Source of the DNA: Planctomicrobium piriforme
GTDB taxonomy: Bacteria > Planctomycetota > Planctomycetia > Pirellulales > UBA1268
Reading direction: 5' to 3'
Assembly (NCBI GenBank): GCA_945869735.1
Contig: CAMBPQ010000001.1
Span: 1-64,000, forward strand
DNA: 64,000 nt
Positions within the stretch are counted from its first letter, which is position 1, and each line of letters starts with the position of its first letter. Below, in pieces: positions 46,426 to 49,581 of the stretch. Below the pieces are notes generated by a model, which had not been told where the DNA came from, searched no databases, and worked only from the letters and a program-made list of their open reading frames with translations. A program made the position numbers and the translations under genes.

Positions 46426-49400
46426 ATGGAGATTCTTTCGCTCAAGGTCCTTCGCGGTCCCAATCAATGGGCATCGTTCCCCTGCCTGGAAGCCTGGGTC
46501 GATCTCGGCCGGCTGGAAGATTACCCCTCCAACACGCTCCCCGGCTTCAATGAGCGGGTCATGTCGTGGCTGCCGACGATGATCGAGCACCGCTGCTCGA
46601 TCGGTGAGCGTGGCGGCTTCTTCGAACGGCTCCGCGCCGGTACCTGGATGGGCCATGTCCTCGAGCATGTCACGCTCGAGCTCCAGACGCTCGCCGGCAC
46701 ACCGGTGGGATACGGCCGTGCCCGCGAGGCCAAGACCCGCGGCGTCTATAAGGTGGTGATTGAATACAAGGAGGAGAAGTTCGCGATCGAGTGCCTCCAC
46801 ACGGCCCACCGGCTGCTGATAGCGGCGATCGACGGCACCCCCTTCGACGTCGCCTGTGAGGTGAAGCGTCTCCGGAAGGTGCTCCTTGACGTGCAGCTCG
46901 GCCCCAGCACGCGGTCGATCGTCGAGGCCGCAGTGGCGCGGGGCATCCCGCCGCAGCGGCTCACCGAAGGCTCGCTCGTGCGGCTCGGACAGGGGGCTAA
47001 GCAGCGGCGGATCCTCGCCGCCGAGACCGATCGCACCGGCGCGGTCGCGGAGACGATCGCACAGGACAAGGAGCTCACGCGAACGCTTCTGGCCGAGTCG
47101 GGCATCCCCGTGCCTGAGGGGCGGCCCGTCACCGATGCCGCCGATGCGTGGGCAGTCGCCGAGGAGATCGGTACTCCCGTCGTCGTGAAGCCCCGGTATG
47201 GCAACCAGGGACGTGGGGTCTCGGTCAACCTCGTCACCCGCGATGAGGTCGAGAAGGCCTGGCTGCTCGCCAACGAGCAGGATTCGGCGGTCGTCGTCGA
47301 GCGGTTCGTCAGCGGTGGCGACTACCGGGTGTTGGTGGTGGACAACCGCATGGTGGCGGCGGCCCGTCGGCATCCGCCGCTGGTCGTGGGCGACGGCGGT
47401 TCGACGGTGCGGCAACTCGTCGATCGTGTCAACGAGGATCCGCGGCGGTGCGGCGACCATGCCACGTCGCTCAGCCCGATGGTGATCGATGAGGTCGCCG
47501 TCGCGGTGCTCCGGGAGCAGGGTCTGACCGAGATGAGCATTCCGGAAGCGGACCGCGATGTGCTGCTGCGCCGGAACGCGAATCTCAGCACCGGCGGCTC
47601 GGCCGAGGACGTCACCGACATTGTCCACCCCGAGGTGGCGGCCCGGGCAGTCGAGGCAGCCCGGATCATTGGCCTCGACGTGGCCGGTATCGACATGGTG
47701 ATGGATGACATCGCCAACTCGCTCGAATCCCAGCGGGGAGTCGTGATCGAGGTCAACGCGGCACCAGGCCTGCGGATGCACCTGGAGCCGACGGTCGGCA
47801 CGCCACGAAACGTAGGCGCCGCGATCGTCGATGCCCTCTTCAGCCCCGGCGACGACGGCCGCATTCCCACCGCCGCCGTCACCGGCACCAACGGCAAGAC
47901 GACCGTTGTTCGTCTGATCGCGCACCTCGCCACCACGGGTGGCGGCCTCGTCGGCACGACCTGTACCGAGGGCGTTTGGATCGGCGGCCGACAGATCGAC
48001 TCGGGCGATTGCAGCGGCCCCAAGAGCGCCCGTCGTGTGCTGGCGAATCCGGCGGTTACCACGGCCGTCCTCGAGACCGCGCGGGGTGGCATCCTCCGCG
48101 AGGGCTGCGGCTTCGACTGCTGCGACGTCGCGGTGGTCACGAACATCGCCTCGGGCGACCACCTCGGTATTGCTGAGATCGACACGCCCGAGCAGATCGC
48201 GTGGGTCAAGGGAGCGATCGTCGCGGCCGTGCGGCCGGGCGGTGCCGCCGTGCTCAACGCCGCCGATCCGCTCGTTGTCGAGATGAAGAAATGGTGCAAG
48301 GGGCAGGTGGTCTACTTTGCCCTCGATCCGGCGAACCCTGTGGTCGTGGAACACCTCGCCCAGGGTGGCCTCGCGGCCACTGTTCGTGAGGGCTGGATCG
48401 TGCTCTGCGACGGTCCGCGCGAGACCAGGCTCGCCCACCTCGACCGGGTGCCGCTTGTGCATCGCGGGCTCGTCGACTTCCAGGTGGAAAACGTGCTTGC
48501 CAGTGCCGCGGCTGCCTGGCGACTCGGGGTCCCGCTGGAGTTGGTCCGGCTCGGACTGGAGAGTTTTTCGAGCGGCTCGTCCGGCTCGCCGGGCAGGTTC
48601 AACCTCTTTGATATCGAGGGCGCGTCGATCGTGGTCGACTACGGCCACAATGTGCCGTCGCTCGAAAGGATCTGCGGCTCGCTGGCGAAGTTCCCGCATC
48701 CGCGCCGAACAGCGGTTTACTCGGCGGCTGGTGACCGTCGAGACGAAGATCTCATCGCGCAGGGCCGGCTCCTCGCCGCGACGTTTGACCGGGTCGTGAT
48801 CTATGAAGATGCCTACATCCGCGGCCGCCAGCCGGGCGAGATCACAAAACTCATCTCGGAGGGCATCCGCGCGGGCATGCGGGCGGACAAGCCCGTGACG
48901 ATCGAGGCCGGAGGCGACTGGGCGACCAGCGCCGCGCTCGTGATCGATGCCGTCGGCACGGGTGATCTTGTGCTGCTCCAAGCCGATACGATCGAGCAGA
49001 CGATCCCCTGGCTCACGGAACGGTATGGCAGCCGGCTCAAGGACACGGTGTTTGACGAGCTTGCCGGCACCGGAGCGGGCGCCGTCGTTGCGACCTCGCC
49101 GAAGCCGGGCGAGCCGGTGGATGTGAAGGTCGGGCGTCTCGGTCGTGGTGTGACCGCGACCCGCGACATCACAGCCGGCGAGACGGTACTGAAGACCTGG
49201 GGGCAGCAGGTGCCACAGCGGACGCGACACACCGTTCAGGTCGACCGGCAGACCCACATCGTGCCCGACGGCGTGGCTGTGCTCTTGAACCACTCCTGCG
49301 AGCCAAACTGCGGTGTCGAGATTCGCTCCGGTGTCAAGGAGATCAAGGTCCGCGCCCTGCGGCCGATCGCCGCAGGAGAGGAGGTCACCGTCGACTACGA

Positions 49401-49581
49401 GACCTTCGAGGAGGAAGTCGTGCATCTCGGCGGGCCGTGCCGCTGCGGTTCAGCGACGTGCCGTGGCCGAGTGGCCGGCTATAAACACCTGCCGGCCGAC
49501 GCGAAGGCCCGGTACGGCGTCTTCATCGCCGAGTATCTGCGAATCCTCGAGTCTGAGACGTCCCTACCAGTCGGGGTGTGA
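46426..49581 (+). CDS. cphA: Cyanophycin synthetase (CphA) with C-terminal SET/post-SET domain
   Basis: LRGPNQWASFPCLEAWVDLG, ATP-grasp PVVVKPRYGNQGRGVSVNL, Mur ligase TAAVTGTNGKTTVVRLIAHL, YSAAGDRRDEDL; then RGVTATRDITAGETVL, LLNHSCEPNCGVE, EEVTVDYETF, CRCGSATCRG. Confidence 0.93.
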   Translation: MEILSLKVLRGPNQWASFPCLEAWVDLGRLEDYPSNTLPGFNERVMSWLPTMIEHRCSIGERGGFFERLRAGTWMGHVLEHVTLELQTLAGTPVGYGRAREAKTRGVYKVVIEYKEEKFAIECLHTAHRLLIAAIDGTPFDVACEVKRLRKVLLDVQLGPSTRSIVEAAVARGIPPQRLTEGSLVRLGQGAKQRRILAAETDRTGAVAETIAQDKELTRTLLAESGIPVPEGRPVTDAADAWAVAEEIGTPVVVKPRYGNQGRGVSVNLVTRDEVEKAWLLANEQDSAVVVERFVSGGDYRVLVVDNRMVAAARRHPPLVVGDGGSTVRQLVDRVNEDPRRCGDHATSLSPMVIDEVAVAVLREQGLTEMSIPEADRDVLLRRNANLSTGGSAEDVTDIVHPEVAARAVEAARIIGLDVAGIDMVMDDIANSLESQRGVVIEVNAAPGLRMHLEPTVGTPRNVGAAIVDALFSPGDDGRIPTAAVTGTNGKTTVVRLIAHLATTGGGLVGTTCTEGVWIGGRQIDSGDCSGPKSARRVLANPAVTTAVLETARGGILREGCGFDCCDVAVVTNIASGDHLGIAEIDTPEQIAWVKGAIVAAVRPGGAAVLNAADPLVVEMKKWCKGQVVYFALDPANPVVVEHLAQGGLAATVREGWIVLCDGPRETRLAHLDRVPLVHRGLVDFQVENVLASAAAAWRLGVPLELVRLGLESFSSGSSGSPGRFNLFDIEGASIVVDYGHNVPSLERICGSLAKFPHPRRTAVYSAAGDRRDEDLIAQGRLLAATFDRVVIYEDAYIRGRQPGEITKLISEGIRAGMRADKPVTIEAGGDWATSAALVIDAVGTGDLVLLQADTIEQTIPWLTERYGSRLKDTVFDELAGTGAGAVVATSPKPGEPVDVKVGRLGRGVTATRDITAGETVLKTWGQQVPQRTRHTVQVDRQTHIVPDGVAVLLNHSCEPNCGVEIRSGVKEIKVRALRPIAAGEEVTVDYETFEEEVVHLGGPCRCGSATCRGRVAGYKHLPADAKARYGVFIAEYLRILESETSLPVGV

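Follow-up and report, generated by a model that had tools for sequence, protein, structure and literature searches.

Cyanophycin attracts research as a nitrogen store and as a biopolymer feedstock. Its main side chain is arginine, lysine can also occur, and these two are the known side chains; we know of no natural methyl-tailored cyanophycin. In cyanophycin synthetase (CphA), residues R309, R323, N394, S396 and R458 handle aspartate and the M domain carries a functional Asp-His pair (PMC9427784, PMC9262961), a Cx19HxxEH motif in the N domain acts as the primer maker (PMC9262961), and His267 is important in the cyanobacterial enzymes (PMC9427784). Among SET enzymes, BurB methylates the sulfur of free methionine (PMC12542666) and catalyzes the first step toward a sulfonium unit used by an assembly line (PMC12542666, PMC7496086). 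Its His93 touches the SAM adenine, and Tyr124 is its catalytic-position tyrosine (PMC12542666).

We analyzed a 64,000-nucleotide stretch of DNA (the window) from Planctomicrobium piriforme, in which positions 46426..49581 on the + strand form a single ATG-to-stop frame of 1051 aa with zero internal stops. A preliminary description had read this frame as one CphA-SET protein. This reading was confirmed in that no stop separates the two parts, the Pfam and NCBIfam domains agree, and the motifs RGVTATRDITAGETVL, NHSCEPNCGVE, EEVTVDY and CRCGSATCRG all lie where they had been placed. The gene comprises the following features:

46426..49581, + strand: cphA-SET fusion gene, 1051 aa, single open frame; same fusion in 32 family genomes
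46495..46824, + strand: CphA N domain (Cyanophycin_syn), residues 24-133, with an intact Cx19HxxEH primer-making metal site; Pfam E 2.6e-39
47059..47373, + strand: CphA G domain core (RimK-like ATP-grasp), residues 212-316; Pfam E 1.9e-16
47878..48513, + strand: CphA M domain core (Mur_ligase_M), residues 485-696; Pfam E 6.3e-18, P-loop GTNGKTT
48592..48978, + strand: CphA M domain lid (Mur_ligase_C), residues 723-851; Pfam E 1.1e-10
49066..49116, + strand: flexible, fast-evolving linker, approximately residues 881-897; pLDDT <50 at 881-889, raised dN/dS
49117..49557, + strand: SET and post-SET domain with C-terminal helical pair, approximately residues 898-1044; Pfam SET, AlphaFold pLDDT mostly >85, Foldseek
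49288..49299, + strand: NHSC motif, residues 955-958, His956 corresponding to BurB His93; His and Cys invariant in 60 SETs
49393..49398, + strand: Asp990-Tyr991, the catalytic-position tyrosine corresponding to BurB Tyr124; Tyr invariant in 60 SETs
49438..49461, + strand: post-SET CxCx4C (Cys1005, Cys1007, Cys1012), with Cys962 as likely fourth zinc ligand; sequence conservation

The CphA part resembled the CphA1 enzymes SuCphA1 (7lg5) and TeCphA1 (7wac) in its full N-G-M order, its primer site, and its aspartate-binding and M-domain catalytic residues. Over residues 2-864 it matched the NCBIfam cyanophycin synthetase model TIGR02068 with 1060 bits, well above the 850 required. By alignment to 7lg5, the solved Synechocystis enzyme, the aspartate-site equivalents of R309, R323, N394, S396 and R458 were conserved, and the equivalents of the M-domain pair D585-H586 were present together with the P-loop GTNGKTT. 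Since the N-domain Cx19HxxEH motif was intact (as seen in the sequence itself and checked among relatives), this CphA is predicted to be primer-independent. The window protein differs from the CphA1 type in adding a C-terminal linker and SET domain, and in carrying Gln at the G-domain position of His267. As almost every planctomycete and Massilia/Duganella-type (proteobacterial) CphA sampled has the same Gln, we regard it as no sign of decay, and His267 as not diagnostic outside cyanobacteria.

The C-terminal part matched the Pfam SET model at residues 906-991 (52.8 bits against a cut-off of 22.4, E 5.8e-14). Structure prediction, which the preliminary description had called for, gave a SET fold; the model of 192 residues, built on a 60-sequence alignment, had a mean pLDDT of 84 and a pTM of 0.77. 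Its top Foldseek match in the PDB was the BurB structure containing S-methylmethionine and SAM (9l4v, E 2.5e-10, probability 1.0), followed by MLL1. A sequence search likewise ranked BurB first, with the MLL and SETD2 SET domains next. In the full-length model, residues 898-1044 formed a separate domain after a disordered linker at 881-889, the pTM of 0.51 leaving the relative placement of the domains uncertain. BurB His93, Tyr124, Gln75 and His81 have their equivalents in His956, Tyr991, Gln938 and His944. The SAM-site His, the catalytic-position Tyr and the three post-SET cysteines of CxCx4C were invariant across the 60 SETs, while Cys962, which would complete the zinc site, was invariant in 13 fused proteins; all four cysteines are probable zinc ligands. 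Residues 898-1044 are probably an active SAM-dependent methyltransferase.

For the SET part we infer catalysis, acceptor and biological purpose as follows. Residues 1-880 would act as a cyanophycin synthetase that polymerizes Asp and loads every Asp side chain with a basic amino acid. The SET domain, held on its flexible linker and using SAM, would most likely methylate an amino-acid group handled by CphA i.e., the basic side chain or the end of the growing chain, or a free amino acid awaiting addition. The product of this two-function enzyme would be methyl-tailored cyanophycin, a proposal that we judge to be evenly balanced between right and wrong.

A scan of species genomes yielded 12 full-length CphA-SET fusions in addition to that of the window, and a search for CphA with a C-terminal SET, as the preliminary description had suggested, recovered the same fusion in 31 further genomes of the window's family, a recurrence well past what chance would give. 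Altogether, 32 of the 74 family genomes, across nine genera, carry this SET at E <1e-68, the count covering frames of approximately 1050-1150 aa and contigs cut inside the gene. CphA itself was found in 55 of the 74, so that the fusion is present in 32 of these approximately 55. In 58 sampled CphA-bearing genomes of the same order outside the family, CphA frames were at most approximately 980 aa, none being of fusion length, and no SET was found near CphA at the out-of-family CphA loci fetched from the order. With fusion-length frames lacking elsewhere in the sampled order, it seems that only one family has the fusion. The window does come from a 128-contig assembly, in which an assembly or annotation artefact might join two genes. 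We nevertheless rejected this explanation as next to impossible, because the identical junction recurs in 32 genomes, many of them MAGs from different groups, and selection acts on both sides of the linker.

Many family members also encode a second, shorter CphA-like protein of approximately 700 aa (e.g., G007:C148, G043:C22), possibly CphA2-like; the window's genome gave only one CphA match. That genome additionally holds a second, stand-alone SET protein of approximately 180 aa (G000:C89:7598-7885, L081), similar ones being found family-wide. It is not close to the fused SET, and descent of the latter from it was rejected because the two lie far apart in the SET tree.

Pairwise dN/dS values were 0.06-0.15 for the SET domain and 0.04-0.12 for CphA, and 0.07-0.73 for the linker region, which thus rose above both flanking domains. 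The low values indicate purifying selection, and so genomes that have retained the SET domain are maintaining it. In the SET tree the fused SETs clustered together (96/95); a non-fused, long-branched pair (L154, L157) fell within them, probably through long-branch error. The fused state was scattered over the family in the CphA tree, with unfused enzymes in several places, including the window's own genus, and a minimum of five state changes. The simplest reading of these trees is that one fusion event was followed by repeated loss. Within the window's genus, the SET was removed by clean deletion beyond approximately residue 880, and the convergent downstream gene is still present. Neither tblastn nor tail alignment revealed SET remnants in unfused relatives, and at the point where the linker and SET would start, the CphA of the near relatives L013 and L015 ends in a short, variable tail of low complexity.

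These losses can be read in more than one way. That CphA positions stay unchanged when the SET is lost suggests an added tailoring step, not one that polymerization needs. Loss in several close relatives with no obvious change in CphA also implies, however, that the modification is dispensable, which counts against methylation of the polymer. The same losses, with no compensating CphA change, are what one would expect of a non-catalytic module that stabilizes the tetramer or binds the polymer, and the N-terminal GxG motif of the SET is not retained in all members (e.g., L002). We consider such a module very improbable, given that neither the SAM-site His nor the catalytic-position Tyr varies within the fused clade or beyond it, and that the SET domain is under purifying selection.

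The sister of the fused SETs was a SET pair from a different family (99/95). In genome G120, one of the pair (L144) is a separate gene whose ATG lies approximately 190 bases (about 0.2 kb) past the cphA stop on the same strand; the other G120 sister SET sits at a contig end with its neighbor outside the contig, and G120 yielded just one CphA. The next SET relatives in a phylum-wide search were stand-alone genes. In eight other planctomycete genomes, such genes (L180, L183, L184, L185, L186, L187, L188, L189) lie directly upstream of, or overlap, a Pls/PosA-type synthetase, i.e., a large protein with adenylation, carrier and terminal domains whose named relative is epsilon-polylysine synthetase, and which scores below the curated cut-off. 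These SETs (L183, L187, L189 and others) form one loose group (96/77) and resemble the window's in that, by family name, their partner is also a non-ribosomal poly-amino-acid synthetase; they differ in being unfused and in serving a divergent Pls/PosA-like NRPS. Their union with the CphA-type SETs was weak (65/57), and approximately half of the Pls-type loci with a readable upstream region have an adjacent SET, two points that weigh against methylation of the polymer. The arrangement nonetheless suggests a SET lineage serving makers of non-ribosomal poly-amino-acids, a theme into which the assembly-line role of BurB would fit by analogy. We advance only tentatively, and with more doubt than belief, the broader idea that this lineage is dedicated to such polymers (fused or adjacent to CphA and, separately, paired with Pls), and that it makes methylated homopolymers, an undescribed class of storage or surface polymer.

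The window protein shares with the MLL/KMT2 histone-lysine methyltransferases the SET and post-SET layout, NHSCEPNC and CxCx4C. MLL/KMT2 proteins are eukaryotic chromatin enzymes, and the window protein lacks their partner subunits and histone context. Most characterized SET enzymes are protein-lysine methyltransferases, and the MLL and SETD2 domains rank next after BurB. These two points favor a protein acceptor (CphA or a protein of the granule), whose methylation would regulate synthesis, the fusion placing the SET at the granule. We nevertheless consider protein methylation unlikely. The position two before the catalytic-position Tyr, which from general knowledge of SET enzymes we take to be the Phe/Tyr switch, is Val989 in the window protein rather than the aromatic of a lysine channel, and is Val, Ile or Phe among its fused relatives. 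No lysine or other CphA residue was found to track the presence and absence of the SET through its losses. Moreover, with the sister SET being a separate gene elsewhere and its kin pairing with unrelated Pls synthetases, a common protein acceptor becomes less economical.

The preliminary description had also assumed that a SET domain implies protein-lysine methylation. This proved too narrow, since BurB, the nearest solved relative by both sequence and fold (9l4t, 9l4v), S-methylates free methionine. A role like that of BurB, in which the SET would methylate methionine on its sulfur or make some other methylated free amino acid, whether or not the product is then stored in the polymer, would account for the shared H-[ST]-x-Q-x5-H and DY-x-x-x-E motifs (including the Gln and His of the former), SAM-site His and Tyr, and S-methylmethionine is a cation, as are Arg and Lys. 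BurB, however, is a stand-alone protein of 172 aa that falls with its planctomycete look-alikes in a separate, well-supported clade, grouping with L146 and L147 and not with the fused SETs. The post-SET cysteine set is also fuller in the CphA-SETs, BurB having Val where these have Cys962. We thus regard a BurB-like role as quite unlikely, while noting that BurB binds Met mostly by main-chain atoms (PMC12542666), so that specificity is not readable from sequence. L146 (G258) and L147 (G216), the BurB-like SETs from another family of the same order (100/98 with BurB), are possible methionine S-methyltransferases; no DMSP-pathway genes were present among their scanned neighbors.

Our preference for methylation of the polymer or its building blocks draws on several of these observations. 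The fusion is conserved in 32 genomes and nine genera, with low dN/dS in the SET and a looser linker; the SAM-site His, catalytic-position Tyr and cysteines are kept; the fold matches SAM-bound BurB and MLL1; and BurB is a precedent for a SET of this type working on a free amino acid. Methylation within the cyanophycin pathway is further indicated by the sister SET adjoining cphA in another family and by related SETs that precede Pls-type synthetases. Among the acceptors put forward in the preliminary description i.e., the polymer, CphA or a granule protein, those within the cyanophycin pathway thereby gained ground, whereas CphA itself lost it because no residue follows the SET. To our knowledge, SET enzymes acting on arginine or guanidine are not established, which counts against the polymer as acceptor and makes lysine or the chain end a better candidate than arginine. 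Free methionine, as in BurB, would be another possible acceptor.

We also searched for degradation genes of two families, PF03575 cyanophycinase and PF01112 isoaspartyl peptidase, and found neither in the window's genome, which is approximately 95% complete. A PF03575 protein occurred in only three of the 74 family genomes and was absent from 71, though 55 have CphA. The missing canonical cyanophycinase is consistent with an unusual polymer but no proof of one. Other bacteria, too, carry CphA in the absence of recognized degradation genes (PMC10206079), and the lack of cyanophycinase therefore does not by itself demonstrate a modified polymer.

No description of a CphA-SET protein was found in the open PMC literature, where the single co-occurrence of the terms was unrelated; within that literature, the earlier remark that no described enzyme of this kind was known stands. 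The parts are known, while their combination, its conservation and its gene-neighbor form appear new. If our proposal is true, a synthetase with its own methyltransferase would be a genetically encoded route to alter the charge, solubility or digestibility of the polymer, and would extend SET chemistry past proteins and methionine. It might also bear on the retention of CphA without a standard cyanophycinase in this planctomycete family. An aquatic family with a SET domain built into its CphA may thus methylate the polymer, or its building blocks, during synthesis.
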